From Patiria pectinifera (taxonomy: Eukaryota; Echinodermata; Asteroidea; Valvatida; Asterinidae): a DNA stretch of 64,000 nucleotides. Shown piece by piece: positions 7,263 to 64,000 of the stretch. The notes beneath the pieces were generated by a model. It was not told where the DNA came from. It saw only the letters and a program-made list of their open reading frames with translations, and searched no databases. Each line of letters begins with the position of its first letter. Position 1 is the stretch's first letter. The translations under genes were made by a program, and so were the position numbers. The stretch covers positions 13,348,643 through 13,412,642 of the forward strand of contig CM057140.1 of the NCBI GenBank assembly GCA_029964075.1, read 5' to 3'.

Positions 7263-9469
7263 ATATTGTGTTTCACTGCGGGATGGATGTGGGCCAAGCG
7301 CCTCGGTTTGAAGTGGACGCGATTGGCTTCGCTTCAAGCAAAACTACGCAATATTGCAGAATGGTCGTGTTCATTTTATTGGCTTGTTGTCCGAATGCGT
7401 TCCAACCCATTTATTTTCTTGCAAGTAAAGAAGTGGCTTGAAATACTGATAATGGAAAGAGCAAGGAGCCAAATCTGAGTGCCACATTATCCGGAAATTG
7501 AGAATTTGGAAATGTTGCATTTTTTTTTCAAGCTCCAATTCTGCAGCATGCATACAGATCAAGCATTTCCAAAGGACGTTCGCAAAATTTGCAATGATCA
7601 AATCGCCATCTTTTATCAAGCTTTACTACGAGACGTCGGAAAGCATATCATCAATTCATAGGCTGTATCAAAAACATTTGGAAGTAAACCATGGGTTGGT
7701 GGTTGGGAACCAGACCATGCAGACATTTTTAATATTATTACCCAGAAATAATCCCTTCGAAGTTCTAATTAAAAATCACAAAATCGCAATCCTTGAAGAG
7801 TGCCAAGTGCCTTCTCATCCATTTTTCAATTCCCTTTTGATCAAGTGGCAAATTTGTTATTACCATTCGAGGAGAACCTGCCTTGACTAATCTCCCAGAT
7901 GCTGCGGCAAGATTAAAGTGAGTAACATAAAAAACATCTGCAAGACTTATAATTAGAGCATCAGTTTTTTTTTTTCATCTGACGGATTTTTGACACCTCA
8001 TAGAAATGGAACAGGTGGAAATACATGTACTTGTCAATACAAATGCATATATTCAAAAGTCATTTTGAAAAGTGCATACATGTAATAAGAAAAAAAAATC
8101 AAATATTTCTCATTTCCGTGTGCACTTTTCACAGCAAAGTCGGGTGACAAAATATTCCGGTAACTCTTTTTGTGTGTGTATACAATTATTTAAGCGCTGC
8201 TTGGCAACTTCACACTTTTTTTTATTTCTCTAAATGCACTTTGCATGTTGTGTGTCGATACATACATGTACACCTGTCAACAGTGCTACTTGTTTGGATG
8301 TAAAGGGAGCCTTTATTTTGCTTGCAAGATGTTTTCACATGGACCTTTTTGAAATGGTGGCTTTGCCTCAAGTTTTGAGTTCATCGTTTGGCTCCAGAAT
8401 GGTGAAGAAGCAATTATGTACACGTACTCTTCAGGGTCGAATCTAGCTTTCAGGAAATGGGGTTAGATACGAAGGTGGACGGGAGGGTTGAGTTAAGCCG
8501 TGCCTTGCTAGGGGTCCGGGGCTTGCTTGGGAAGATTTTGAAGTCCCTGATGCTTTCTCCTGCATTCTAAGGCAATTTGGGAATAAATGTGGAACTGTAG
8601 CATTCACTTGACTATTTTTGGCCCCATTTACTAGTTTCATGACATTAGTCAGCGGCTGAATTGGGGGGGGGGGTGTTACTGCTCTTACCTTTGATACAAT
8701 GTATGTTTTGATGTTCAATGGCAGAAAATGGACCATGTTTCCCTATAGTCAGGGATCCAAAGTCCAGGCACGCAACTTTTTGCTTGGTTAGCCGATTTCT
8801 CTTTTTTATTTTTACTTCTCTCGTATACCATGAAAATAACAAACTGCTGCAAATTGCTTGTTGTCTGGATTGTTATGAACTATATAAATTAGAAAAAAAA
8901 TTTGCTGGCCTAATGCTTTGATCTTATGGGGACTCATCATCAAAGGCACAAATTGAAGGGGAAAAAAACATAAAACTGAAAACACTGCAGACAAGACGGT
9001 AAACTTCAGAATGTCCTTTGGTGACTTCCCAGTTGCATGCCTGAAAATCATGGAACTGGAGCTGAGGTTTGGAAAAAACCAAGCCTGTCGACGGTCCTTC
9101 TCTCAAGCCACATTTTGTCCTCATCGTTCATACAACCCTAGCTATCACTATTAAAGAAACATGAAAAAAAAATTCACGCCAATGTGAAACAGATTTTATA
9201 AAAAAATATCGCCATTTCATACACCATCCATGTGTAATAATCCACCACCGTCAACCTCGGCTGCTTTGAAATCTCTCCGAATCCGCTCGGCTGACCTCTT
9301 CTCATCAAGGTTTTGGAAGGTGTCAGCGAGCCAATTACTTGTCACTTGACTTGCTTTCCATTCCCCTGATCTGTCAAATCCCGCCGTTGATGATACTTCA
9401 ACGGGGCGAGCTCCATCCGGACCCCGGTCGGATTGTTGTCTTAATGCCCGCTAGCTGAAAGTGGCGCTG
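7263..9469. other. no gene recognised apart from duplicate B copy 1
   Basis: It contains A/T-rich non-coding sequence and the segmental duplicate at 8536-8876. The 130-codon ORF at 7498-7890 shows no domain. Confidence 0.55.
8536..8876. repeat. segmental duplicate B, copy 1
   Basis: CCCTGATGCTTTCTCCTGC through GCTTGTTGTCTGGATTGT matches 10651-11014 at high identity. A G-run differs in length. Confidence 0.85.
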
Positions 9470-10135
9470 CGGTCACTGTCGGCGTCCCTTAATAACACCT
9501 CACGCTGTGGGGATTACAACCCACGAGGATGACCAATTCCGCTACCTGGATGTTCTCGCTATCATGCCAACCCCTTCCCCTGATTCTGATGGCCAGAGGA
9601 CATGAAACGTTCATCATCTCCCCTCGAAGAGGTATACCCGGGATCAGGCACTGCGGTTACTGTTGGTATCCCTTAATAACACCACATGCCGCGGGGATTT
9701 CAACCTACGAGGATGACCAATTCCGTTACCTGGATGTTCTCGCTATCATGCCAACCCCATCCCCTGATTCTGCTTGCCAGAGGACATGAAACGGTCATCA
9801 ACTCCCCTCGAAGAAATATAGCCGGGATCAGGCACTGTGGTTACTGTCGGTATCCCTATAACACCTTGTGCCATTGGGATTACACCCCACGAGAATGACC
9901 AATTCCGTTACCTGGATGTTTCTCACTATCGTTCCATCCCCCCTCGTCCCTCTCCCCTCCCGCATCCTACTTGCCAGAGGACATCTGATGGTCATCGTCT
10001 CCTCACTGTTTTATTATGCTTTCCCTTACCCTCATCCCACTTCCCTCCCCCCCCCCCCCCCACCCCCTCTTCATCCTTGAGGACATTGGACGGTCATCAT
10101 TTCCCCGAAGAAATTTACCCGGGATCTCGGCCCGA
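9470..10135. repeat. tandem repeat, ~184 bp unit, about 3.5 copies
   Basis: CCCTTAATAACACC at 9486 recurs at 9670 and, diverged, at 9853. Each unit contains GATGACCAATTCCGyTACC, TGGATGTTCTCGCTATC and GCCAGAGGACATGAAACG. The last partial copy follows a C-run near 10055. Confidence 0.88.
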
Positions 10136-10411
10136 TAATGAGAATCAGTCGGTAGTGGTGTTTTCCACGACTGACCGGTCAATTGGTCAGTCAGCTGTCA
10201 GCGTAAAGAGGAGTTGCGGCTCGAGGAGGCAGAATCCTCTCAAATCCCAAGGTGATAATGGCCATTCCTGGAGGCTGTTGGTGGGGAAAGTGTAGAAAAA
10301 CAACCTCAGAGAATCAGCAAACGTGATAAATTATGCATCTTTACAGCATCGTGGCCTTTTTTTCTGGTCTCTAATTTGAATTTTTTTTTTACACACAAGT
10401 GCCCCTCCATA

Positions 10412-10650
10412 TAACATCAACATTGCAAATAAAATGTGAAAAACATGTCCATAATTGCTTGCATTTCAGGTTTATTATTTGCTTGTTTATGATAAATAAA
10501 TTTGAACACTTTATTTCAGAAGCAGTGGTCCTGATATCTGAAATGAAAGTATCCCTTGGTTTTCGCAGAGGATGTTATCTACATGTATTTTAAATCAGCT
10601 CAGACTTCTCTCGCATGATGTTGACCTTCAGGAGAACCTTATCCTCTGAC
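10412..10650. repeat. direct repeat A, copy 1
   Basis: AACATCAACATTGCAAATAA through AACCTTATCCTCTGAC matches 11015-11249 with few changes. The two copies flank segment B. Confidence 0.85.
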
Positions 10651-11014
10651 TTTTGAAATCCCTGATGCTTTCTCCTGCATTCTAAGGCAATTTGGGAATA
10701 AATATGGGAACTGTAGCATTCAATTGATTATTTTTGGCCCCATTTTACTAGTTTCATAACATTAGTCAGCAGCTGAATGGGGGGGGGGTGGGGGGGAGGG
10801 GGGTGTTGTGTTACTGCTCTTACCTTTGATACAATCTATGTTTTGATGTTCAATGGCAGAAAATGGACCATGTTTCCCTATAGTCAGGGATCCAATGTCC
10901 AGGCACGCAACCTTTTGCTTGGTTAGCCGATTTCCTCTCTTTTTTTAATTTTTACTTCTCTCGTATACCATGAAAATGAACAAAGTGCTGCGAATCGCTT
11001 GTTGTCTGGATTGT
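10651..11014. repeat. segmental duplicate B, copy 2
   Basis: This second copy of the segment at 8536-8876 is enclosed by the two A repeats. It contains a long interrupted G-run. Confidence 0.85.
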
Positions 11015-11249
11015 AACATCAACATTGCAAATAAAATGTGAAAAACATGTCCATAATTGCTTGCATTTCAGGTTTATTATTTGCTTGTTTATGATACATA
11101 AATGTGGACACTTTATTTCAGAAGCAGTGGTCCTGATATCTGAAATGAAAGCATCCCTTGGTTTTTGCAGAGGATGTTATCTATTTTAAATCAGCTCAGA
11201 CTTCTCTCACATGAGGTTGACCTTCAGGAGAACCTTATCCTCTGACTTT
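11015..11249. repeat. direct repeat A, copy 2
   Basis: This is the second copy of 10412-10650. It lacks the ACATGT insertion present in copy 1 near 10570. Confidence 0.85.
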
Positions 11250-12394
11250 CTTTATCTGTCAACACCAGAACAATTTTCACATGAAATTGGCTTGAAATTG
11301 AGATGTGCAAGTTTGAATGTAACACTTCAGTGATGCTATCCTATCTGTTAAGTTGAACGATTCATGTGACCCTTATAGAGACTCTTTAAGTCGTAAACGT
11401 CAATGAAGTATAGATGCAGCGTCCTCCCATATTGAACGCAGTTTCTCTTGTTTCTGTGTCTTGAGGGGTGGAAGATTGTATCGTGCGAAGTCCTTGCAGC
11501 ATCGTTACTGCATCATATTTTCCTCCGGTCATTTTTGGTTTACTCAAGTCGTTTGGCATGCCAAAATGTGCTGGGTGATCGTCATGGCGACTGCCTGTCA
11601 TTGAGATGGAGCTATTGAATGGTTGCCACGGGGACGCATCAGCGGTGTCTGTAGGGAAAAGCGACAGATCATTTTGATAACCCTGGGGTCTCGCGCAGCG
11701 GATGAATTTTTTTTCGAGCGAAGCAACAAGTACCTTGCCCTTTGGAAAACTGCGTATCCATACCAGGTCGATCAGTCAGATTGCCTGTCGTTTGTTTTCA
11801 GTTTGTTTTTCGTCAGATGCAGAGCTTGATGCTTTTTGTAGTTGGTCCTTTCGTAAATGGCGATCTCCAGGTTTAACAAGTGAAACTTGAGTTGCCTTGT
11901 CTGGGAAGTTCTAAAAGGATTCATGTCATGCAGTATACATGAAGAGCAATCCGGGCACACTGTCCATTCTATTAGCCTATTTGAAGTATGGCGGACATAA
12001 TAGTTTGGTTTGGGTAAATACAAAAGACTTTACCCAAATTAAACAGCGCCCTCCTATTGCGTCTACCATACCTCGAAAAAAGCTAGGAAGGCCCCCTCCA
12101 ATGGCGAAAGCATTGTGCTAGCTATTGTTGAGATAGTCCATCACCGGGCAGTTGTACAATAGTGTGCACAATGGTTTCTCTATTATATGTGTTATGCAAA
12201 CGCTCTAGATTTACAGCTTTCCTAAATCAAACTGTATAGGCCTAAAGCTTTGTCCACTAACGTTATTAACTCAAGACAATATCACCCTACTGCTGAACAC
12301 AAATATGCTAATTGTAGAGATCCTTCGCTTAATAGCGGAAAAGCAATCAGCTTTAAGTGGTGTGAGTTTGGAGATATCGCTTGGGATCAGGGTC

Positions 12395-12640
12395 CAATTT
12401 CACGGCGCTGCTTAGCACAGAAATGTGCTAAGCACGGAAACTATTTGCTTAGCAGAAGCAGGTTTACCAGCTAAAATATCATGCTGTGTATATCACTCCT
12501 GGACTGGTTCTCTGCGCATTTTATGCCAGGCACATTTGCTAAACATGCTTAGTTGCTCTGTAAAGCTTGGTGTAGATGTTGCTCCGGCATTTTGCAACCT
12601 CTGCAATTCTTGCTAAGCCGAAGGAGCAAATGATTTACAT
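12395..12640. repeat. GCTTAGCAC-type dispersed repeat, copy 2
   Basis: CGCTGCTTAGCACAGAAATG, ACCAGCTAAAATATCATG and GACTGGTTCTCTGC follow the order seen at 2036-2250. CTTAGCA/TGCTAAG pairs give local hairpins. Confidence 0.5.
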
Positions 12641-13924
12641 GTTCTTTGGACCTCACAGAGCCAGAACAACAAGGCAGTGACGTCTTCATATGCTTCATAT
12701 CACGCAGGAAGCTGTCCAAATAGTACAAAGTGCAGCATTTTTAACAGTTCTCCGGTTGAGTTTGTCAAAGCGTACACGACCCCTAGAAGATTGATGCCAT
12801 CCCGGCCGACAGAACGTGCCATTTTTAGCACCCGGTGTCATTTCAGTTTGACGCAGATCATTAAAAATGGCAACAGCAACCTGAGGAGACGACATCTATT
12901 ATCTATTCATGAGTTTGTCTCCTCCAAGTTTATGGTTTCCTGTAAAACAATCCGTCACTTCTCTCGTATCTCCGGGATCCATCATCCCATGGATGATTTG
13001 CTGGGAGACAGATGAATCTCTTGTTTCCAAGGAAATGGCCCCATGAAAATTTCATGGTCCTGCTTAACGGTCAGCAGAAAAGTTCTGTTACCTATTGGAG
13101 AATGTTTGTGCTAACCTTAAGCTTATTTCTCTGCCAAGACATGCTAAGAGTCACACACGCGTAGAGATTTCAGTTGTTTCTTTGTACTTGAAGCAGATTT
13201 GCCCCTGGAGTATCAGTGTGTAGTTTGCTGTGCTTACTGTTTATAGAGTCTTCCATAAAATGGAAGAAGACTCTGTTTGTAGTAGAAAACAGAAATTTGG
13301 CCCCTGTCTGTTTGGTCTTTGCTCTCAAGGGGTGAAAGAGGAGGGGAGAAGTGGCTGGGGGCTCAGATGAAATGATTTGCATCATCTTGGCATGCTCCTC
13401 CAACGAAGCTACTCTTAGGACTGCTCTCCAGTACCACAAGATTGCCTCATGTTTTGTTCTCCTGTTTGTCCAATTTATAATTTTCATACAGCCCTACTGC
13501 AACTTGTCACCACACCGAGCAGTTGTTCTTGTGATGTTCCCGTCTCTCTCTCTTTGGGTGCAAAGGTGTTCAACAATTGGCTAGTGCCACTGACGTGCCA
13601 AGAACACTGATAGCACTTTGGCCCAGTTTCTACCATTAGACTTTAGACAGCCGCCTTCATTTGGAAATACACACATCGTCACCATTTAGACGAACCTTTA
13701 ACATACGGGCTGGCAACCTATGGCTTAACCTCATCTGCTCCCATACCCCAAGTGCATCGAAAGAAACTCTGTGTCATCAATCATGTTTGAAATTACTGTT
13801 ACTTAGTCTGACTCCAACTCTGCCCCCCCCCCCCAAGAGATGTAATACTATGTGATTTTGGGTGGCAATCTACCAATGTGTCGTTGTCCCTTTGCATGTT
13901 GCTTGTGATTGGTGTTTTCAGTTC

Positions 13925-13995
13925 CATGTGACTTGTAGTAGACAGGAGGTCGTGGGTTCGAATCCCACCAGAGCAAGCTTGTGAATATTCTCTCC
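13925..13995 (+). repeat. tRNA-like SINE fragment
   Basis: The stretch has a B box GGTTCGAATCC at 13955-13965 with a short flanking stem (GTGGG/CCCAC). No A box at the proper distance is convincing. Confidence 0.4.
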
Positions 13996-16102
13996 CAAGC
14001 TCTCAGACAATGGTCATAAAAACTAAGTCAGTGGAGGGCAAAACCTGATATTAAAATTCAACGCAGGAAAGGACCCTCCAACTGCTTTTGTAGACTTGGA
14101 GGATTTGCCTGCCACTCTCTCCTTACCACCACCAGAGGGCGGTAGACAACACCTGACATCTGAAGTTGAGCAGAGTGATAAATCTGATGTAGTAACTCTA
14201 GATGCCCACCGAAGCCTTGCAAAAGTGGCCATCCCTTCCAGTTGTCACCCTAACCCAAATCTCTTACCCTAACCAGAACCCCATCAACCTGTCTCTAGCT
14301 TTGTCCAGACCAGGGCTCCTCCAACAAAGCCTGTCCCCCTGGGGAGCAGTTAAACTCTTACAATTAGGGAGCCTCTTCAGCCTGAGCACCATTGCTTTTG
14401 AGTAGAGGGCTGTCCGTCCCAATAAATGGTCAAGTTGAATTGGCCGGTCAGGTTGAGTTTGATTGCAATTGCCCTGGTCACTGCATAATGTGGTCGGGAG
14501 TTTTGCATACTGTTTGTCAATTTGTCAGTGGTCCCTTGAAAAGTAGGTCAGTTGCTGGTGAAGAGGTTACGGTGTCCATTGGCATGAATGTGGATGCTGC
14601 TCGGTAGTACTTGCAGCAACCTTGGCAGACTGTAGGCATGGGCAGAGTTCCTGGTGGGGATGGGTGGGATGATATATCCCCCCCACTGTTTGGGCAGGGG
14701 GGAATGGTGTATACAATCATCCCCCCCCCCCCGAATTTTCAACACCCTTTATTAAATAACACCCTCAATCAGCAAATAGTCCCTTTAGTCAGGGTCCCAT
14801 CCCCCCCACTTTGTGACACAAATCTCCACCACTAACTGTACTGTAGGCAATCGAGGTTTAGTCTGATACATGGCTTAGAGAATGAGCAAAAATATTTTCA
14901 ATTTTTAGGTTTTTTGTCAAGTTCCAAGTGTGACTTATTCTACTCTCGCAACAGTTTGCTCTGCAACTCACAGAACTTCAGGATTTGAAATAAAAAAAAA
15001 GTTTCTTCTAATTTGTAAGTTTTGTTTAAAGGGCAAAGTGAGATTGGTTTACTTCCACTTGAACATTTATTTTTACTCCAATGTACAACTTTAATTGTGA
15101 GGATTTTGTTGTTTTGAGTCGACTGCGATTTGGCAAGTGCAGTTACTGCATAAAACAGGATATTTAATTGTTGGATAAGCCTACAGCAGAGTGCAAAATC
15201 TCCATCGAATTATGCCAGCAGCCGCTAGCGACAAATCCACCAAATCCTAACCAGACAACGTAATACCTACCTCCATGGTAATACTTAGGGTTTTTTTACC
15301 ACAATCTATTTCATCCCCCTAATCCAAAGCAAGAGTCAGTGCCACTCAAGTAGGCCTACTTGACACAGTCATACGGCCAAATTGAAAGAAAGAAAAAGAC
15401 AAAAACTCGTAAAATACAATTTATTTTGTATTATTATTTTTTCTTGTGGGTGATCCCATTGCTGTTGGTTGCAGACCCACCGAACAGGTGTTGTTAAGTG
15501 GAGCAGGCTGACAAGTAATAAATTAAATTATATTTTTTTCGTCTCGCGATACCTGTCCAGGTAATTTTAGGCGAGCGCATTAACTCCATTGAAGTACGTG
15601 TACATTATGCTTTTCAGTGTTGGGAGGACAGCTGGCTTTTGGCGCAAACAGCGAAAGGGAATTAAAGTGTCGTTATTTTGAAATCCAGGCTGGTAAAAAG
15701 GAGTACGTGAAATGGTGAAACTGAAATGTTGATGGCAATGTGCTTGGTCATGTCTGATATTATGTCATTAAGAAATGTTTGCCCGAAGAAAAAGGCTTCT
15801 CCAATCTAGGGCTTTCTTTTTACCCAAACTCTAATACTTGAGATTCAAATTTTTTTTTTCATGTCAAATTACGTGAGTAATGTTCTCTGAATATCTTAGC
15901 ATATCCAATTTGTTTTGCAGATATCCAGTCTGATATGCTTCACTTGCCATTATTTCCTCCGTGTTCTCAGAGATCCAGAGATAAAATTGTGGTTCAAGTT
16001 TCATGTTGTCTCGTGGAACTTCGGAGAGAAATTGAAATTGTTGAAAATGGCATCATGCCGCTTTCTGATTGTATCTCTTATTAAACAGAACATTTAACCT
16101 AA

Positions 16103-16469
16103 GGCCCCCCCCCCCAAAAGTCTCTGGTTTCTGGTATGCGCGCGCGTCGCCGTAGCCATGCGCGTCGGCAAAATGAAAAAGTTTTTTTTCAATGAAAGAT
16201 GATGTCTCAAAACCGCCAAACTCACTGGTTTGACTGGAATCCTGCTGCTGCACAATTTAACGTGTTTTTAGATGGGGTTATGATCGAGAATAAGCTTTAT
16301 GTGGCCTCTCTGGACTCCCATATATTTTCACTAAGTTTAGTCGGGCACCATTTGCAGTCATCAGCCGACATTTGAAGCAAAAAAGTCAGGTAAAAAAAAA
16401 AAAAAGCCGTGTCGCCGCACCACTTTTTGGACAAGCTCCATACCAGAAACCAGAGACTTTTTTTTGGCC
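16103..16469. mobile_element. PIF/Harbinger-type MITE, family 1, copy 1
   Basis: The element is 367 bp with inverted ends: GGCC, a homopolymer, then GTCTCTGGTTTCTGGTATG on the left and its complement on the right. It is flanked by TAA at 16100-16102 and 16470-16472. GGCC ends with 3-bp TWA duplications fit PIF/Harbinger. The A run of the left end is largely a C run here. Confidence 0.8.
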
Positions 16470-17176
16470 TAACAGTGTATTATTTTATTATTTGTAAGAA
16501 AACACATTCCAAAAAGACATTCACACAGCTCTATGTTTATAACTACAGGAGTTAAGAATACCTGTGTATTGGACATCTAAATTTGATGGGCTGTAAAGTA
16601 CATTAGCAGATTTAGTTTTGTATCAGCTGAGCTTGCAAATAAAATTGCCCTTCGTTTCCTCATTCCTGGAAAGCTTAAGAAATTCTTACCAAGGACTCTC
16701 CACCCACAATCCACTAGATCAATCCACTAGCACCCTTGAGTAAAACGCTACACCTAGTAAAGTGGTACACCTGTTATTTGTTATGTAACAATAGTGAGGT
16801 TAGTTGGAACAATAGCTGCCACAATGCTTCTGTCATAACTGAGGTGTCTCACAAGTGGACAATGGTCACACACCCTGTATTTCATTCAGATCCCCATATC
16901 CCCCCCATTCAAAAATAAAAACGTGAAGGAGCGCCAATATTGAAGGACCAGTGGGCACCATATTGCTTCATGCACACTGGTTTACATACATTATATAGAT
17001 AGTGATTAAGCATGTGCACCAGCTAAACTGTCCTTCACAAGCTCTCTCAGTGTAAGGTTATAGAGCGCCCTCTGTTTGCACATGGGATGGGAGTCCATAT
17101 AAGATCTTATCATCTCTGCTCAACCCCAAACAGTGACACGACTTCCCCTCTCCTCCTCCCGTGTCACCTCAAGGCC

Positions 17177-17245
17177 TGCCCCTCTTTTTGTCCCCTCCCC
17201 CCACTTTGTCCCCTCCCCCCACTTTGTCCCCTCCCCCCACTCAGA
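17177..17245. repeat. minisatellite, CTTTGTCCCCTCCCCCCA x3
   Basis: There are three adjacent copies of a ~19-bp C-rich unit. Confidence 0.9.
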
Positions 17246-17406
17246 TTTTGAGGTAAGGCAAAATTTTGCTTTTTATTGTTAAAAAGCCATTGAGTGCCCA
17301 CCTCAAGTGCCCTCCTCCAAATTGGATCCCACTAATTAGCCCAAAAGGTAGAACTGCCCCTCCCACCCCTCCACCCTCCACCTTTCATGCAATCTGACTT
17401 GGACCT

Positions 17407-17591
17407 ATTCGCTCTTTTCACACTTCCGCCATGGGCATGCACTGCCTTGATCTGACAACTTTACACAATGAATATAGCCGGTTCAGTGATTCCCGTGTCG
17501 GGATTCAGATCACTGAACCGGCTATTTTCATTGTGTAAAGTTGCCAGATCGAGGCTCTGCATGCCTATGGCGGAGCGTGAAAAGAGCGAAT
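17407..17591. repeat. long near-perfect hairpin (foldback element)
   Basis: Two arms of about 84 bp (17407-17490 and 17509-17591) are complementary with few mismatches, for example TAGCCGGTTCAGTGAT against ATCACTGAACCGGCTA. The inner TCCCG/CGGGA extends the stem, leaving a tiny loop. It is non-coding. Confidence 0.85.
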
Positions 17592-17922
17592 TATTACTCA
17601 GCGTCACCTCAAAAGTTGTGATTTTTACAACCTGAGCCCCATTGCAAGGTGCTAAATCCTACCCATCAATCACCACTGACCAAACATGATATAAACATGG
17701 CCTATGTGTCAGAAATGGAAATCAAGTTGAATGGACTGCCACTGTGTAATGGGATTATCTCTTGGCCAAACACTGATGAGGAAAGACCCAAGCTACTGCT
17801 TGATCAGATTATGCTGAAAAGCTCCGCATACAATCCAGTAATAGAAGAAGGATCTTATTTCTGCCTTGTGTGGGCAGGGTAGGGGCATGGCGCTAAATAG
17901 CTCCATGGTAGGGGCCAGTGAA

Positions 17923-18190
17923 CTGCTCAGTAAGTGAGTGTTAGCCGTAAAAAAAAATGTATTCCTTTATAAGAAAACCAACTGTTAAAATAGGTCGATA
18001 ACATTTTTCATTTTGTGTACTAGTGACACAAACACTTTGAATTGGCCAGCGGACTGCTCAGTGACTGAGTGCTAGCTGTAAAAAAAAAAAAAAATAGTTA
18101 ATAAAATTTCCTTGGATAAGAAATCTAACTGTTAAAATAGGTTGATAATTTTTTTTATTTTGTGTACTAGTGACACAAACACTTTGAATT
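17923..18190. repeat. tandem duplication, ~121-145 bp unit
   Basis: GACTGCTCAGTGACTGAGTG through TAGTGACACAAACACTTTGA occurs twice (17923-18043 and 18044-18190) with small insertions. Confidence 0.85.
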
Positions 18191-19894
18191 GATTTTGGAA
18201 GTCCGGACGACCTTGTGACAAAAATCAACTTTGCATCAGAGGCTCTGTTTAAGATGAAGCAGGGATGTTTGCAAAAGCAAGTCAGAAAGTCAGGTTTAAT
18301 TTGAATCATTTTGAAGAAAAACTGGTTTTGGACTATTTTGCTGTTGCTGGGAATTCATATGAAATGACATCATCAGGTTTTCTCAGATTGCTAAAAAAAA
18401 TATATACTTTTCTTACAACTTTTAAAGCTCAGGACGTATAAAACGCAGCGTAAAACTGTGTTCCAGATGTTGGCTCATGGTTTTTTAACTTAGCACAAAT
18501 TTCTAACTATGAAAATTTGGGACGACAAATTAATGAAAGAATCACAATCAAATTCACTCCCCGAAAAAAGGGCAAATAAAGGGAACATGACTGAAATGGT
18601 GGCAGCATGATAAAGGTCTATACCCACAGTACAGGTGCACAAAACACTCTGCGCATATTACTCTCAATGCATAAAAACATGAGATAATGAACGTGATACG
18701 CACGGCCATTTTTCGCTGCCCCTCGTTCACTCAGACCGTAACAAAACCTGAACCCTCTTAAATGGATTATCGACAAGGCAACAACCAGGCCATATTTACT
18801 TGGCTAAATGTAGCGAAGAGGCTATTAGATGGCCGGTCAGCATAACGCACCAGATTGCGGAAGTGCCCCGTCCTTTTTTCTTTTCAACGGACGAGAATTT
18901 GGCGAACGTGCTACAACAAGGCAATTCGCAACTTAACGCCGGGATCGAATATCACCGTGCCGAAAAGAAGAACACTCGAATCCCACTTAATTTTTTTTTC
19001 TTTAGAGCCGAGCTCGTTAGATTTGCTTTTCGTGACACTTTCAATTACCGTGATGTTGTTTTGGGGGAAGGAAAGTGCCCTGAGAAGGGAGAGAGATACT
19101 GAATGTAAAAGAATTAATTTACACTAAGTGAACGGTGTTGGTTTTGGTCAGGCTGTGCCTTTTGTATAAGGTAATACAGCCAGTTATTGCTTGGAGCAGT
19201 TTCAGTTGATATCGTGAGACCATTTTTCTCAATTAATTTCTCCATTAATTGACAGGTCAATTTATTTTGTTCGTTTTAAATTGAATGTAGTCAAATAATT
19301 TAATCATAAATATTACTTTCAATTGCTTATTTGTGCACTGAAGTAAGACGTAAAAAGATTTAGTACTGTAATAGTAGTGTTTTTGAAATATATCTTGTTA
19401 CTCATTTAGTGATTGCTTTCAAAATCTGTTTATTTTTTTTCTTGCAACTTTACATCTTTGAACTGGAAACTTGACTCCTACAAGAAAAGCCAATGTGAAA
19501 TCCAGCGCAACAATCTCTAATGAAATTGCCAGTGATACATTGCGCGTCAAATCGGAAGATGATTAATAAATCGTCTGTGCTTGACCAATATCTGTATCAG
19601 ATTGATAACAGAAAGGGATTCACTCTGTTCAAATTGGATTACAAAATGACATCTGTTTTTCTCTCGACACCACAGATTGTGCAAGTGATCGCAATTAGCG
19701 GCACATTTACGCAAAATGTAATAAGGGGATGACACATTTTGATGATGATTTTCCCATGTGGCAAAAAAATTGACATGAACAAATTTGTTAAAAAAAAGAC
19801 TTTGCAAGCTTAATAAAGCTGATTGCAGAGTTCAATTTTTTTTTTTTAAATTGGCTATTCAATGGAAGTCTTCATGCATCTGGTCTACATAAGG

Positions 19895-37097: not shown

Positions 37098-37816
37098 AAG
37101 GATTCTGTTCAAAGCAGAGATAATTACACAGACTAATAGAAGTTTGTTGCATATTTTTCTTGCCTTTGAAAAATCCTTGTTCATTCAATGATATATATTG
37201 CTAAACTTGAATTTATGCAGTTATGTGATCACTGTGATATTATATCATACCCCAATCCCTCCAAAGGAACTACTTAATAGTGCTATTATCATAAACTGCA
37301 AGACTTCTGGTATTAACCCGTCCATCATGCCTTTTCACGGCATCATGTGCCATTCACCAAAATCCTTGGAACAAATTGGTCAATTATACAACTTGGTGGA
37401 CCTTGCCAGCAGGTGATTTAAAGCCAAAAATCAACTAGTAGAATCCATTCATTCAAGGTTCATTTGCGCTTTTTTTTGTATCCTTCGGGCCAAATGTCCG
37501 GGTGTTGAAATGTCAGTTAGTTGGTGGCATTGTTGTGAAATTTATTTGTGGCCACTCAGATTTGATGTCTTGTTTGTCTCCGGCTGTGGTTGGCATTTTG
37601 AGACCATGGTGGTCAACGACTCCCTAAAATAAAAACAAAAATACCACACAAGTGAGTGGACTTTTGCTGCTCTGGTTTAAATGTGGACAGAAGTCAATGA
37701 ACTTTGCAGAGAGTGCTTGGTAGTGGATCCAGAGGGGGGTGCCCTCCCCCTCCCTTTCAGTAAATGATGGATCCGCCTCTGGTGCTTAAAGTCAGTAATT
37801 AGTTGATGCCTTGTTA
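37098..37816. other. no gene recognised
   Basis: This is unique non-coding sequence between the satellite arm and a Harbinger-type MITE. Confidence 0.55.
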
Positions 37817-38173
37817 GGCCAAAAAAAAAAGTTTCTGGTATGCGCGCGCGTCGCCGTAGCTATGCGCATCTGCAAAATGAAAAAGTTTTTTTTTCAATAA
37901 AAGATGATGTCTCAAAACCGCCAAACTCACTGGTTTGACTGCAATCCTGCTGCTGCACAATTTTAACGTGTTTTTAGATGGGGTTATGAACGAGAGTAAG
38001 CTTTATATGGCCTCTCTGGTCTCCCATAATATTTGCACTAAGTTTAGTCGGGCACCATTTGCAGTCATCAGCCGACATTTGAAGCAAAAAAAACAGGTAA
38101 AAAAAAAAAAAAAGCCGCGTCGCCGCACCACTTTTTGGGCAAGCTCCATACCAGAAACTTTTTTTTTTTTGCC
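37817..38173. mobile_element. PIF/Harbinger-type MITE, family 1, copy 2
   Basis: The element is 357 bp with the same interior as the copies at 16103 and 55656 (for example ATGATGTCTCAAAACCGCC). Its ends are shortened (AGTTTCTGGTATG) and the duplication is TTA at 37814-37816 and 38174-38176. Confidence 0.82.
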
Positions 38174-38758
38174 TTACAGACATGCAGCTTTTCCTCGGAT
38201 CCGCTGATTTCCTCGTCTTTTACTTCACACGAATACCATTACAATTTGAGAAATGCTGTACAAAGTCTTGTGTGGTTTGGAGATTCCTTGTTGTTTCTAA
38301 ACTCTGAGTTGCATGCCTGCTTGTTAGTTGAACAAAAATGTGAAACAATCAAAATTTATAAGTCACTTCAACGGGCTTGGGCCTTCAACCAATTACCAAA
38401 CAAACTGTCTTTCAACAGTCGTGCAGTGTGAGTCATTTTTTTTTTATCACAATCGAATTGCCCTTGGGGGACTGGTGAAATGTTCATTCTTTTTGCAAAC
38501 ATTTTGGGGACTGTTAACCTTACATTCCATAATGTCATGTGTGACAGTGACAAGATTGGTTCAATCGTTGGCATCCGTGCAGTTAAGTAATTCAGCTTCT
38601 CAAAAATATGTCAAAACAACAGTGTGAACATTTATGTTCTTACTAGTCCCAAGAATTGTTTGTGCAACACTGTTTGTTAGCTTGGCCAGGTATCAGTCTG
38701 CAGTTACACACACAAAAACAAAAATATTGAAAGAAAAAAATGACTGGTACTTTCTTAA
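38174..38758. other. no gene recognised
   Basis: This is unique sequence between two MITEs. The overlapping 98-99 codon ORFs have no motifs. Confidence 0.55.
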
Positions 38759-48457: not shown

Positions 48458-48543
48458 GTCTTCCCCTATGAGGAGGTGGATAAGGGCCAACCATGCCTGA
48501 GCTGCGGGGATCGGTGCCTAGGCTTCACTCCACACAAGTGGAG
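48458..48543 (+). CDS. PET/LIM-type gene, internal exon (Cys-rich motif before PET domain)
   Basis: The exon is 86 nt. It follows a pyrimidine-rich acceptor (AG at 48456-48457) and precedes a strong donor, AG|GTGAGT (GT at 48544). Reading from the first base gives 28 codons plus two bases. The peptide begins VFPYEEVDKGQPCL and carries CLSCGDRC and then HKW. This resembles the Cys-rich segment preceding the PET domain in testin, limpet and LMCD1-type cytoskeletal adaptor proteins. The two leftover bases (AG) complete an Arg codon with the first base of the exon at 62902, so the join is in frame. The exon opens in phase 0 and has no start codon, so upstream coding exons must exist. None could be recognised with confidence in the preceding 48 kb. 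The family usually acts at actin structures, junctions or muscle, which is established for relatives and not shown here. Confidence 0.85.
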
Positions 48544-55500: not shown

Positions 55501-55655
55501 GTTGTGCAATATGCACTGCATTTCCAAAAGTTCTTTTGTTGTGTGTTATAGCTCCATTGTTACACTGAGTTTGTCAGTCTGCCAGTGGTGCAGAACAGTT
55601 GCTTTTGTACAAGTGCTACATGTACTTTGAAAATCTGTAGCTTGTGCCCCCATAA

Positions 55656-56027
55656 GGCCAAAAAAAAAAAGTCTCCGGTTTCTGGTATGCGCGTGCGTCG
55701 CCGTAGCCATGCGCGTCAGCAAAATAAAAAAAAATTTTTTTCAATGAAAGATGATGTCTCAAAACCGCCAAACTCACTGGTTGGACTGGAAATCTGCTGC
55801 TGCGCTATTTCAACGAGTTTTTAGATGGGGTTATGATCGAGAATAAGCTTTATGTGGCCTCTCTGGACTCCCATATATTTGCACTAAGTTTAGTCGGGCA
55901 CCATTTGCAGTCATCAGCCGACATTTGAAGCAAAAAAGTCAGGTAAAAAAAAAAAAAAAAGCCGCGTCGCTGCACCACTTTTTGGACAAGCTCCATACCA
56001 GAAACCGGAGACTTTTTTTTTTTGGCC
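55656..56027. mobile_element. PIF/Harbinger-type MITE, family 1, copy 3
   Basis: The element is 372 bp with TAA duplications at 55653-55655 and 56028-56030. Its ends GTCTCCGGTTTCTGG / CCAGAAACCGGAGAC match in both arms (a paired C/G change relative to copy 1), so the arms are still complementary. It ends 220 bp before the piggyBac-derived start codon. Confidence 0.83.
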
Positions 56028-56247
56028 TAAGGCTTTTGTAGTCAACGGTTTGTGGTGGAGAGCAGGACTTGTGACATTAGTGACCCTGTGGAACAGCTTT
56101 GTGTGGCAAGAGCGTTTTGCTGTGAATCATTTGGGCCAGTGTAATTTGTGAAATACGGATGCCTTATTGGTTGTAGGCACACAAGTGAAAAGCCTGTGTC
56201 TTTTTTGTGCCTGCCTTGTACCAGATACCAGATTTCATGTGTTCAGT
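56028..56247 (+). promoter_or_regulatory. short 5' flank of the piggyBac-derived gene, with upstream ATGs
   Basis: Only 220 bp separate the end of a Harbinger-type MITE (56027) from the start codon. The stretch holds two out-of-frame upstream ATGs: 56159, closed after five codons, and 56237, which overlaps the real start. No TATA box is evident. Promoter or 5' UTR sequence must lie here, extend into the MITE, or be joined by a distant 5' exon. Confidence 0.3.
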
Positions 56248-58131
56248 ATGGCGTCCGGAACATGTATAAAACAGGAGCCTCAGGATGAAGATGATTACGA
56301 TACAACTGAGCAAGGTGGTCATGCAAGCACCCCAACTGTTAAACTGGAACCGCCCGATGAGGTTTCGGATGAAGCTGGATTTGGTGAGGGGAGTGATGGA
56401 GAAATAACGTGGGAGTCTTCTGACGATGATTCAGATGGAGATGATGATTGCGAAGGCCAGGATTTTGATTCTTTCGATGATGATGATGATAGTGATTATT
56501 GCTATCTGGATGGTTATGATGATACGGATGATAGCAGTGACGTTGGTGACGCCAGGCCGCATAAACGGTCCCGCCGTGCACCACCAGTGACCTCGGGGAC
56601 GTCAGGACCGAGATTATACCATGCAGCGTCAGGGCACACATGGACCTCGGAGGTTCCGACACAAGAGACACCACAAGTCAAGGTTGAAATGGAGCAGGCC
56701 GGACCCAGAAACGTGAATCCAGCCTCGACCAAACTGGAACTGCTACGCCTGTTCCTTCCGATGACGGAGTTGCGGAAAATCTTGCGTCACACAAACGAGG
56801 AGCTCGAGCGGAAGTGCCAGAAGTATGAGATTAATATGACAGAGCTGATGACTGCCCTGGGCCTCCTGTATTATCTCGGTCTCACAAAATCTTCACATGA
56901 GAATGCCAAGACTTTTTGGAAGGATGGTCTCCTAGGCCGACCCCTTTGCCAAGCCGCAATGATGGGGAAACGCTTCCAGGGCATCCTATCCGCGCTCCGG
57001 TTTGACGACAGGGCCACTAGGGAGCAGCGCAAGTCCGTGGACAGCTTTGCACCCATCCGGGAGGTTTTCGAGACATTTGCTTCAGCCTGCCAGAGCTTCT
57101 TCTGTCCTGGAGATAACGTCACGGTCGGCGAACAGATTTTGCCCTTCCGGGGTTTGTACTATTTCAAACAGTATTTGTCCAAAAGCTCAAGGAAGCGTGG
57201 TATAAAATTTTGGCTGAGCGTCGATAGCAGATACAACTTTGTGACCAACATCCAACCAGGCCTCTTTGAAGAGGGACCAAAGCCGGGCAAAGAAGTTGTC
57301 AAGGACTTGGTGGAGCCCATACGCGGGACCGGCCGCAACGTCACAACAAAAAGCGCATTCACAAGCCGCAAACTGGCTGAGGAGTTGCTAGCCGATAAAC
57401 TGACCCTCATTGGTGCTATCAGTGGAAGCCGACCAGAAGTGCCCAAGGAGCTGAAGCCACCAAGTACCAAGAAATGGGAGGTCAAGTCAGCAGTGTTTGC
57501 CTTTGATGGTTCCTTGACACTTCTGTCCTACATCCCTAAGGAGAACCATAATCTGTTGTTGCTCTCAACGAAGCATCACAACGGCAACTTCAACGCTGCA
57601 TCCACGAAACCGGAGATGCTAGATTGCTACCACCGGACCAAGTTTGCCGTGGACACAGTTGATCATCTGTGTAATTTCTACAGCGCCGTCCGGAGAACGA
57701 AACGCTGGCCTGTCCTGGTCTTCTACAACCTGATGAACCTGGCTGCCAACAATGCCTGTGTCCTCTGGTGCGCCCTCAATCCGGACTGGAAGCGAGGGCT
57801 CAACGCGAGCGTCCGACGCCAGGCCTTCCTAGCAGATCTTGTCACGGAGCTCCTCCACCCCCAGCTTCAAGCCCGGGCTGCCAATCCTGCCGGCTTGCAC
57901 CGCAATGCCCGACTAGCCCTTGCTTCCATGGGATATGAGATATGTTACCAGAGGCGAAGCCTGCCTGGTGAGGCGGGGTCGGAGAACAAGCAACAGATGG
58001 GGAGATGCCACTTATGCCCACGCAAAAAGGGCAAGCGGACCACCATGGTCTGCCACACGTGTCGGCACTTCGCCTGCGATGTGCACTCTCAGAAATCCAC
58101 CACCATCACCTGCAGCTACTGCCTGAATTAG
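56248..58131 (+). CDS. piggyBac transposase-derived protein, probably domesticated and catalytically inactive
   Basis: This is an intact single-exon ORF of 627 aa. The start chosen is the first in-frame ATG, with A at -3 and G at +4. Family hallmarks in order: acidic N-terminus (residues 10-101); basic cluster HKRSRR (105-110); TELRKILRHTN (about 174-184), like the helical dimerisation/DNA-binding region; EQILPFRG (295-302), the E-Q-x-x-P/G-F-R-G block; the VTTxxxFTS block (365-373); RTKFAVDTVDHLC (463-475), the T-K-x-x-V-D-x-x-D block; and a C-terminal Cys/His domain with C587, C590, C602, C605, C610, H613, C622, C625. Length compares with 594 aa for the cabbage looper transposase. By eye, the first catalytic Asp is Gly294, the second is Lys368, and only the third (Asp469) remains. 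Three psi-K-x-E sumoylation motifs occur at K8, K32 and K145. No TTAA or terminal repeats flank it. It lies inside an intron of the PET gene, same strand. The likely role is DNA or chromatin binding rather than transposition, which is inference. Confidence 0.88.
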   Translation: MASGTCIKQEPQDEDDYDTTEQGGHASTPTVKLEPPDEVSDEAGFGEGSDGEITWESSDDDSDGDDDCEGQDFDSFDDDDDSDYCYLDGYDDTDDSSDVGDARPHKRSRRAPPVTSGTSGPRLYHAASGHTWTSEVPTQETPQVKVEMEQAGPRNVNPASTKLELLRLFLPMTELRKILRHTNEELERKCQKYEINMTELMTALGLLYYLGLTKSSHENAKTFWKDGLLGRPLCQAAMMGKRFQGILSALRFDDRATREQRKSVDSFAPIREVFETFASACQSFFCPGDNVTVGEQILPFRGLYYFKQYLSKSSRKRGIKFWLSVDSRYNFVTNIQPGLFEEGPKPGKEVVKDLVEPIRGTGRNVTTKSAFTSRKLAEELLADKLTLIGAISGSRPEVPKELKPPSTKKWEVKSAVFAFDGSLTLLSYIPKENHNLLLLSTKHHNGNFNAASTKPEMLDCYHRTKFAVDTVDHLCNFYSAVRRTKRWPVLVFYNLMNLAANNACVLWCALNPDWKRGLNASVRRQAFLADLVTELLHPQLQARAANPAGLHRNARLALASMGYEICYQRRSLPGEAGSENKQQMGRCHLCPRKKGKRTTMVCHTCRHFACDVHSQKSTTITCSYCLN

Positions 58132-58526: not shown

Positions 58527-58536
58527 AATAAATAAA
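58527..58536 (+). other. candidate polyadenylation signal(s) for the piggyBac-derived gene
   Basis: Two overlapping AATAAA hexamers (58527-58532 and 58531-58536) lie about 400 nt after the stop codon of the piggyBac-derived ORF. They are the first strong matches downstream that I noticed. The region is A-rich, so chance occurrence is possible. Confidence 0.3.
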
Positions 58537-58634: not shown

Positions 58635-59074
58635 ACAGTGCTTGCCAGAGGGCCCATCTTGTAGCAATTGCTCCTTATCAGCCGAAAATCTACAAGCACA
58701 TTTTTTCCCCCCTGGTCACCAATTTATCCCATCTCCCGGGGCTAATTTAATTCCACGAGCATTTCAGCGTCACCTCCAAACATCTCACTATACTTTCCCC
58801 TCCCACGTTTCTGTTATTGTTATGTTCCGCACATGATGCGACAACATGATGAACACATCCCTTCCAATTTGCGTCCCCAACATCTTCAGAGTCAACTGAC
58901 GCACCATGTCAACTTTTTGCTTGTTCAAATTTCATTAGATGCCCGTTTTTTATTGGAATCCAGCCAAGCTAGGTACGCTGATCTCCACCCCCTCCCCCCA
59001 CCACCCAACAGTGAGTTCATGGAATGCCCTACAGAATTTAATCAATCGGTCGGTAATTCAAAATTAAACTGGCC

Positions 59075-59515
59075 GAGAAATTTTTAACTGCAAAAATTAA
59101 GAGGTATGGGGAGGGTGATTAGTTGTGCAGTTTTTTGGGATTGAATGTTGCTGTTGGTCCTAAATATAACAAAATTGCTTCTTGAAAGTTAATTTATATT
59201 TTTTTTTAATTTGGTCAAATTTAATTTTCAGATGAAGCTTTCAGTGATGGTCGAACATTTTTGAAATTGGCACGTCCCAACGCCCCCCCCCCCCCGAGAA
59301 ATTTTTAACGGAAAATAAGAGGTATGAGGAGGGTGATTAGTTTGTGCAGCTTTTTCTTAATGTTGCCGTTGGTCCTGAATATAACAAAAATTTGCTTCTT
59401 GAAACTTAATTTAGATAATTTTTGTACATTTTTGTCAAAATTAAATTTTCAGACGAAGCTATCACTGGTTGTGTGACATTTTTTTTCTTCAATTGCCATG
59501 TCCCAATGTGTTTAA
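59075..59515. repeat. tandem duplication, ~222 bp unit
   Basis: GAGAAATTTTTAAC, AAGAGGTATG, GAGGGTGATTAG and TTAATTTTCAGAtGAAGCT occur in the same order at 59075-59296 and 59297-59515. Confidence 0.82.
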
Positions 59516-62546: not shown

Positions 62547-62675
62547 TGCATATTTGGATATTCATGTTGTCCCTTCCTTCCTTGGGAGTACATGTGGTTG
62601 TCAGCAGGATGGCCATATCATATTTGTGATGGTGCACTAACACAGTTAGATATACCTCAATATGCAAATGACCAC
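62547..62675 (+). pseudogene. older tandem duplicate of the PET-gene exon start (copy A)
   Basis: It shows the same flank motif (CTGCATATTTGGATATTC) and then AGTACATGTGGTTGTCAGC from 62587. Relative to the real exon it has a 9-nt in-frame deletion, several substitutions and a stop (TAA at 62638). The acceptor AG has become GG. It sits 135 bp before copy B, which is 181 bp before the real exon. Confidence 0.65.
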
Positions 62676-62825
62676 TCTGCATATTTACATATTCATGTTT
62701 TCATCCCTCCCTTTTCCTAGTAGTACATGTACAAAATGCAGATGTCAGCAGGATGACCATGGCATCATCCATGACAACCTAGTGACAATGAAAAAGCAAC
62801 AGGGTATCCTTCAGCAAATGTCTTC
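62676..62825 (+). pseudogene. tandem duplicate of the PET-gene exon start (copy B)
   Basis: From 62722 the sequence is nearly identical to the first ~70 nt of the exon at 62902 (AGTACATGTACA, then GATGTCAGCAGGATGACCAT) and retains the frame and the C-x2-C-x-C motif. The preceding intron flank (CTGCATATTTACATATTC) is also duplicated, and an acceptor-like TTTTCCTAG remains. Homology stops after GTGACA at about 62787 and no good donor follows. It is probably a relic, although inclusion as an alternative exon is not excluded. Confidence 0.75.
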
Positions 62826-62901
62826 ATCTGCATATTTACAAATGACCTTATCTGCATATTTACATATTCATGTACATTCCTGTTTCCCACCCCTTCCCCA
62901 G

Positions 62902-63082
62902 GAGTACATGTACAACGTGTGGATGTCAGCGGGATGACCATGACATCATCCATGACAACCTAGTGACAGTCCACGAGCGCCTGGGCATCGATACCAAAGA
63001 CCACAATGAGCTGGTCCGCAGCAAAGAGCGGGCGCTGAGTCTCGGCTACTCGTGGGTACCCCAAGGGCTTTCTCCAGCAAAG
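62902..63082 (+). CDS. PET/LIM-type gene, internal exon (start of PET domain)
   Basis: The exon is 181 nt, with acceptor CCCCAG (AG 62900-62901) and donor AAAG|GTTAGT (GT 63083). Its first G completes the Arg codon begun by the exon at 48458-48543. The peptide then runs STCTTCGCQRDDHDI, so together the two exons form a C-x2-C / C-x3-HxW / C-x2-C-x-C motif typical of the region just before PET. The later part contains YSWVPQGLSPAK, matching the conserved opening of PET domains (aromatic-x-W-x-P-x-G-L) in prickle, testin and limpet. The exon ends in phase 0. It is separated from the previous exon by an intron of 14358 bp that contains the piggyBac-derived gene. Two degraded tandem copies of its 5' portion lie directly upstream (62547-62850). 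Confidence 0.9.
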
Positions 63083-63787: not shown

Positions 63788-64000
63788 GTAGAAGACTTCA
63801 TGAATTCCCTGCCCAACAACCAGATCCCGCGGCTTCACACGGCAGGCCAGAAGTACCGGGACCGGCAGCTGATCCTGCAGATGCCTCGCCAGGACCTTGC
63901 CGAGGAGTTCTGCAAGCACATCCTGGATGCTGCGTCAACTGAGTGCTTCTACCAGTTTATGGAGCTAAGGGACGAGGTGGCCTTTGCGACGGGACGGGTT
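63788..64000 (+). CDS. PET/LIM-type gene, exon continuing the PET domain (cut by window end)
   Basis: The exon starts after acceptor CATACAG (AG 63786-63787) in phase 0 and stays open to the last base, giving 71 codons. The peptide contains VEDFMNSLPNNQIP, then GQKYRDRQLILQMPRQDL, the classic PET pattern: a short helix ending in LP, then P, then G-x-K-Y-R-x-x-Q-L and a P-x-x-D turn. The remaining residues (EFCKHILDAAS ... FYQFMELRDEVAF) fit the C-terminal helix of PET. The 3' boundary and any LIM domains lie beyond the window. With the two preceding exons it encodes about 160 residues. Overall similarity is closest to the limpet/testin/prickle class, but which paralogue it is cannot be settled from this fragment. 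Confidence 0.9.

Follow-up and report, generated by a model that had tools for sequence, protein, structure and literature searches.

Genes derived from piggyBac transposases that have lost part or all of the catalytic site have been described in human, Xenopus, and Paramecium. Human PGBD1, PGBD2, and PGBD3 have a degenerate catalytic triad; the triad is lost in PGBD1 and PGBD2, and PGBD3 carries one Asp-to-Asn change and is described as still binding transposon ends (PMC3902484, PMC6143343). PGBD5, in the description given in PMC3902484, has lost three of four aspartates, and its transposase domain is spread over seven exons. Kobuta of Xenopus is reported as an inactive piggyBac protein lacking catalytic aspartates, in which D346 is kept as a rule, as is D450 (PMC2533014; numbering of Trichoplusia ni [T. 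ni] piggyBac). In Paramecium, PgmL1 to PgmL5 are piggyBac-derived paralogues, some without the full triad, that act in a complex during programmed DNA elimination and are regarded as architectural partners (PMC6143343). The cellular role of such catalytically dead genes is largely open. Here we describe a 627-amino-acid piggyBac-derived gene of the starfish Patiria pectinifera, located at positions 56248 to 58131 of a 64,000-nucleotide stretch of DNA (C12:13348643-13412642; hereafter the window) in an assembly of 613.5 Mb and 1020 contigs. It is probably a domesticated gene, immobile, single-copy, and under selection after losing the ability to cut and join DNA, and its product is probably a DNA-binding host protein that does not cut. 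The gene thus belongs to a kind already known, to which it adds a new member with an unusually clear family context. Positions refer to the window, and features given in the form start..end lie on its plus strand; loci elsewhere in the genome are cited by contig (C) and locus (L) numbers.

The gene is a single exon. Positions 56248 to 58131 hold one open reading frame of 627 codons followed by a terminal stop, with no stop before its end, as had been stated in a first-pass annotation made from the sequence alone. That annotation had also found all family blocks recognizable. Pfam DDE_Tnp_1_7 (PF13843) matched residues 164 to 503 (56737..57756) over profile positions 4 to 348 of 349 (E = 2.9e-58), and a phmmer search of PDB returned T. 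ni piggyBac (6x67, E = 2.9e-59) and piggyBat (9c0f, E = 2.9e-18). A near-full-length DDE_Tnp_1_7 domain and a C-terminal cysteine-rich zinc domain (CRD; 58006..58125) place the protein in the piggyBac superfamily. T. ni piggyBac, the better of the two solved relatives found, is 27 to 29% identical to it and has the same domain order. A structure prediction of residues 155 to 627, made without an alignment, had a mean pLDDT (predicted local distance difference test score) of 34.9 and was not used. No relatives were confirmed in the viral contigs and prokaryote genome contigs searched, and none of the titles listed by searches of open-licence literature describes the gene.

Catalytic and DNA-contact residues were assigned by alignment with T. 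ni piggyBac (residue numbers checked against the protein chain), piggyBat, and 20 further frames of the same genome; the PGBD1 to PGBD5 proteins stood outside this alignment and are compared by description. An active piggyBac transposase has a DDD triad, and the corresponding residues here are G294, K368, and D469. The first-pass annotation had placed Gly and Lys at the first two catalytic positions, with coordinates that proved exact: G294 (GGC, 57127..57129) aligned with T. ni D268 and K368 (AAA, 57349..57351) with D346, leaving Asp at neither position; Asp at both was one of the outcomes that the annotation had named as refuting it. The adjacent S369 (AGC) replaces N347, so that the Asp-Asn pair D346-N347 has become K368-S369 (57349..57354). 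By eye, codons 294, 368, and 369 are at least four nucleotide changes away from Asp-Asn codons. The third Asp, which the annotation took to remain, is indeed kept as D469 (GAC, 57652), aligned with D447, and the accessory Asp D450 is kept as D472 (GAT, 57661; both within 57652..57663). Further losses affect positions at which T. ni piggyBac and its four closest counterparts among the paralogues of the gene agree or nearly agree: N440 is His and G444-G445 is Phe-Ala (H462 and F466-A467, 57631..57648), R372 is Ser, and R277 is Leu. Retained are the equivalents of the T. ni omega-loop contacts R275, Y283, and K290, of W465, and of six CRD ligands (C587, C590, C602, C605, C610, and H613, aligned with T. 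ni C559, C562, C574, C577, C582, and H585).

According to the account of the T. ni structure in PMC7351741, D268 and D346 hold a metal ion, N440 contacts a TTAA base in the hairpin, the G444-G445 turn follows the minor groove, and R372 contacts target DNA. Asn or Glu at D268, D346, or D447 is reported to impair excision by T. ni piggyBac (PMC2533014). Since both metal-ligand aspartates, D268 and D346, are lost, DNA cutting in the usual way is not expected, and by extension from the T. ni mutagenesis, excision and integration should not be possible. The gene resembles PGBD5 in having lost aspartates, two of four compared with three of four, but it keeps D447 and D450 and occupies one exon rather than seven; identity with PGBD5 was rejected on the exon count. 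It resembles Kobuta as a presumably inactive member of the family lacking catalytic aspartates but differs in the residues involved, with D346 replaced by Lys and both D447 and D450 kept. Unlike T. ni piggyBac, which has the DDD triad, TTAA ends, and terminal inverted repeats (TIRs) and moves, the gene is G-K-D, has no TIR that could be found, and exists in one copy.

Copy number and transposon ends were examined across the genome. The PF13843 profile gave 110 matches, and a search with the protein as query, in which 70 of 77 candidates were scored, gave 40 matches in all. The only match at 100% was the gene itself, and the next reached 45%; the several near-identical copies of a mobile element were not present among the scored candidates. 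The next matches were four long open frames of 42 to 45% identity, on C13 (L014), C3 (L011), C1 (L013), and C19 (L012), below which came weaker matches and broken relics. TIRs were sought at 22 genomic frames, including the gene, by comparing the ends at TTAA sites on the two sides, out to 2.5 kb or to the limit of a shorter flank. Within 2.5 kb of the gene, no TTAA + TIR pair among 280 TTAA pairs rose above the random background: the best pair shared six starting bases, and placing the gene at random in the window gave six or more in 23 of 300 trials. Near-identical copies with TTAA ends, which the first-pass annotation had named as evidence that would speak against domestication, were therefore not found, the next match being 45% identical and no TTAA + TIR pair being detected within 2.5 kb.

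A TTAA + TIR pair was found at 10 of the 22 scanned frames (L009, L010, L016, L017, L019, L020, L023, L024, L027, and L028), with TIRs beginning CCCT or CTCT. The scan found none for the gene, L011 to L014, L015, both L018 frames, L021, L025, and L026. L022 itself lacks a TTAA + TIR pair but closely copies a family that has TIRs. The catalytic state is known for 21 aligned frames, L026 not having been aligned. Loss of the first or second Asp was seen in 5 of 11 TIR-less frames and in none of the 10 with TIRs (Fisher p = 0.035; counting L022 as TIR-bearing gives 0.012), p-values that are optimistic because the sample consists of the gene and 20 frames of our choosing, with near copies among the TIR-bearing rows. 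Two of the TIR-bearing frames, L009 (C4:9707717-9708829) and L010 (C17:8287598-8288710), are near-identical, have an intact DDD triad and TTAA-CCCTTTGCA ends, and are recently mobile piggyBac elements of the same genome. Three long open piggyBac frames of other lineages for which no TIR was found, L015 (C17:13046885-13047919, G-D-D), L021 (C1:14899576-14900724, D-S-D), and L025 (C9:2880427-2881536, D-G-E), are candidate domesticated genes in their own right.

In a midpoint-rooted tree, the gene and L011 to L014 grouped together (support 96/98), and this clade grouped with T. ni piggyBac (100/100). None of the five genes in this subfamily has detectable TIRs; L011, L012, and L014 keep the DDD triad, and the gene and L013 do not. 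Within the clade, the gene stood beside L014/L011 (93/92, not a starred node) and L013 beside L012 (99/97), from which it follows that the change of the first Asp to Gly most simply arose twice. L013 (C1:26350984-26352492, minus strand) has this change and keeps the second and third Asp, most simply independently of the window gene; its frame lacks an early ATG, so the start has perhaps been lost or is carried by a separate exon. L011 (C3:19210990-19212773, plus strand) has an intact DDD triad and its CRD in another frame. The end branch of the gene measured 1.07, compared with 0.21 to 0.37 for the four paralogues. One genome thus holds paralogues without detectable TIRs that represent several stages, some with DDD in full, one lacking the first Asp, one lacking the first two, and one with a frame-shifted CRD, and the order in which cutting is lost while DNA binding is kept is therefore directly testable.

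Selection was assessed across these five genes. Pairwise dN/dS estimation with YN00 failed in 9 of 10 gene pairs, including the gene against all four paralogues, with dS saturated; L011-L014 was the sole pair giving a value (dN 0.147, dS 0.94). Because pairwise dS was saturated, a codon likelihood model was used, on 390 aligned codons. The shared omega (dN/dS) was 0.084. The estimate for the branch of the gene was 0.04, with the length of that branch having reached its bound, and fixing omega at 1 lowered the fit by 19.4 log-likelihood units (lnL); in 40 data sets simulated with omega = 1 on that branch, the difference was at most 1.54. Omega = 1 was also rejected for the L012 (21.4 lnL) and L013 (16.3 lnL) branches; it was not rejected for L011 or L014. 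A dN/dS near 1, the third observation that had been named as counting against domestication, is thus rejected on the branch of the gene relative to its paralogues. An intact frame, no transposon ends, a single copy, and purifying selection, here measured against paralogues with saturated dS, are the marks of a domesticated gene. The first-pass annotation had argued that loss of active-site residues in a frame free of stops indicates selection for a non-transposase function; the rejection of omega = 1, the single copy, the lack of a detectable TIR, and a relic with the opposite pattern of decay support this argument.

That relic (C18:9751240-9752770) belongs to the same subfamily and is useful as an internal control for decay. 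Its pieces are 46 to 60% identical to L012 and L013 and lie in three frames with in-frame stops, and the motifs VDEQL, VTVDSFF, and GVDTVDQ, which hold the first to third Asp, are still present. The short left flank available to the TIR scan contained no TTAA site. In this single case, the frame broke before any Asp changed, and the window gene has the opposite pattern. The comparison bears on the strongest competing explanation, that the gene is a recently dead transposase, an old immobile copy in which decay has just begun and catalytic residues were lost by chance before stops or frame shifts appeared. Such a history would account for the long end branch (1.07), and the evidence of maintenance is confined to one genome. 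The L011/L014 pair also looks relaxed: the CRD of L011 is out of frame, omega = 1 was not rejected for either gene, and allowing for neutral change at the tips improved the fit by about 11 lnL at 0.2 to 0.3 changes per codon. This neutral phase and the frame-shifted CRD of L011 indicate that the test can detect relaxation where it is present, and for the gene the optimum of the same model lay at zero neutral changes. A neutral phase of 0.2 changes per codon would cost 1.94 lnL and would yield about five stops (by arithmetic with 4.1%). The probability that codons 294, 368, and 369 all changed as observed with no stop arising was at best about 3e-6, at 0.05 changes per site, a figure that ignores insertions and deletions and concerns an event picked after the fact. 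With the opposite order of loss in the C18 relic, these results make recent death unlikely.

Retention of conserved residues was compared between domains. Where L011, L012, L014, and T. ni piggyBac all share one residue, the gene has it too at 36 of 43 columns of the dimerization and DNA-binding domain (DDBD), whereas for the catalytic and insertion domains the count is 48 of 76 (Fisher p = 0.021). L013, a paralogue scored at the same columns as a control, gives 38 of 43 and 66 of 76, respectively (p = 1.0). When the reference set is L012, L013, L014, and T. ni piggyBac, the counts for the gene are 33 of 39 in the DDBD and 44 of 67 in the catalytic and insertion domains (p = 0.043), along with 7 of 7 in the CRD. 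The losses of conserved residues may therefore lean modestly toward the catalytic and insertion domains, a pattern that is suggestive only.

The N-terminal tail of the protein is acidic and contains three psiKxE motifs, the consensus for attachment of SUMO (small ubiquitin-like modifier): IKQE (K8, 56266..56277), VKLE (K32, 56338..56349), which is followed by acidic residues, and VKVE (K145, 56677..56688). The motifs take three of the five lysines in residues 1 to 170, and three such motifs in residues 1 to 160 were reached by none of 200,000 shuffles. None was present in the four paralogues or in the T. ni segment used. Acidic N-terminal tails are described as common to other piggyBac proteins (PMC9499001). 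In contrast to PGBD1, with its additional N-terminal domains (PMC9499001), and to PGBD3, which is a fusion with CSB (PMC3902484), the gene has only its acidic tail with SUMO-type motifs.

The simplest model is that of a nuclear DNA-binding regulator, since the DNA-binding domain is mostly kept and the CRD is kept, catalysis is lost, and SUMO-type sites have been gained. With most of the DDBD and a zinc-binding CRD, the protein likely still dimerizes, enters the nucleus, and binds specific DNA, and it may act as a non-cutting chromatin or transcription factor. Remnants of the ends of its own former transposon would be a plausible target, as described for PGBD3. The newly gained SUMO-type sites in the tail probably tune the protein.

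Several points weigh against domestication and against this model of it. The selection test compares paralogues of one genome with saturated synonymous sites, and the constrained branch covers time before the Asp losses, when the ancestor was perhaps still mobile. The long end branch of the gene fits relaxed or shifted constraint. The skew between domains is modest, and with the T. ni row dropped from the reference, 63 of 88 DDBD residues are kept and, for the catalytic and insertion domains, 64 of 102 (p = 0.22), while the CRD count becomes 8 of 10. The SUMO-type motifs are sequence patterns that were spotted before the statistical test. Nor does a catalytically dead piggyBac protein have to be a DNA binder: for PGBD5, which is also degenerate, one study reports no association with DNA or chromatin (PMC3902484), and a later one describes binding to repeats (PMC12324416).

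Rather than acting by itself, the protein could be an architectural, non-catalytic subunit beside the DDD-bearing paralogues L012 and L014, by analogy with PgmL and Pgm. We regard this as improbable, more so than recent death. The better preservation of the DDBD, though modest, would suit such a partner, as would the coexistence of five paralogues without detectable TIRs, three with DDD and two without, and PgmL offers a precedent in the account given in PMC6143343. However, the DDD paralogue L011 has a frame-shifted CRD, and aligned identity of the protein is only 38% to L012 and 42% to L014. The likeness to Paramecium is that a single genome carries a set of piggyBac-derived paralogues, part of which lack the full triad; programmed DNA elimination and a shared complex belong to the Paramecium system. 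In a more elaborate form, to which we give slightly less credence still, all five TIR-less paralogues would form one mixed complex, with the gene and L013 supporting L012 and L014 in a programmed step of DNA cutting or repair. If true, this would be an animal counterpart of the Paramecium Pgm/PgmL system, with the SUMO-type tail of the gene as a regulator. Least probable of all, and very doubtful, is an active nuclease of the kind proposed for PGBD5, with a non-canonical site that draws on acidic residues close to the missing ones. In its favor, D469 and D472 remain, E295 directly follows the lost first Asp, and activity is described for PGBD5 despite its divergent catalytic domain (PMC6143343, PMC12324416). 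Against it, Gly and Lys cannot hold metal, the Asn beside the second Asp, the N440 hairpin-base contact, and G444-G445 are lost too, and in T. ni piggyBac even Asn or Glu at D268, D346, or D447 impairs excision (PMC2533014).

The ATG of the gene has A at -3 and G at +4, positions by which a start codon is weighed under the Kozak rule. A PHKRSRR basic stretch, noted by eye (56557..56577), is a possible nuclear localization signal. An AATAAA at 58527..58532 is a possible, weak poly(A) signal in A+T-rich surroundings.

The gene appears to lie within an intron of a host gene, as the first-pass annotation had it. Downstream on the same strand is an exon coding for a PET domain (63788..64000; PF06297, E = 3.5e-14), preceded by AG and running off the window; PET domains are animal domains. 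Two exon-like stretches, which we take to resemble the N-terminus of testin, flank the gene: a putative upstream exon (48458..48543), ending ...HKWR, with AG before and GTGAGT after, and a putative next exon (62902..63082), reading STCTTCGCQRDDHD... to ...GLSPAK, with AG before and GTTAGT after. By eye, their splice sites and phases fit each other and the PET exon. These same-strand exons therefore place the frame inside a 14.4-kb intron, in sense orientation, and the host would be a PET-domain (testin-like) gene. At 62580-62960, the start of the testin-like exon and its preceding bases are, by eye, repeated in tandem as three imperfect copies (near 62587, 62722, and 62902).

On C420, at about 9000 to 19600, repeated fragments match residues of about 235 to 372 of the protein, several of them about 1.3 kb apart. 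Together they form a tandem array derived from part of a piggyBac relic.

Two repeats near the gene were considered as its transposon ends and rejected. An imperfect direct repeat at 59073-59506 lies downstream of the gene, with no link to ends seen. A 374-nt inverted-repeat element (55655..56028) with perfect 35-nt TIRs is a separate high-copy miniature inverted-repeat transposable element (MITE), with both its ends upstream of the ATG, 219 bases from it, and is not part of the gene. With 40 of 2173 candidates scored in a genome search, it matched itself at 100% and 39 others at 94 to 97% identity; from the likeness of these copies, it is a recent bystander beside the gene. As judged by eye, TAA flanks the copy adjoining the gene, and the window holds two further copies of this MITE with its 35-nt TIRs, at 16116-16472 and 37816-38174.
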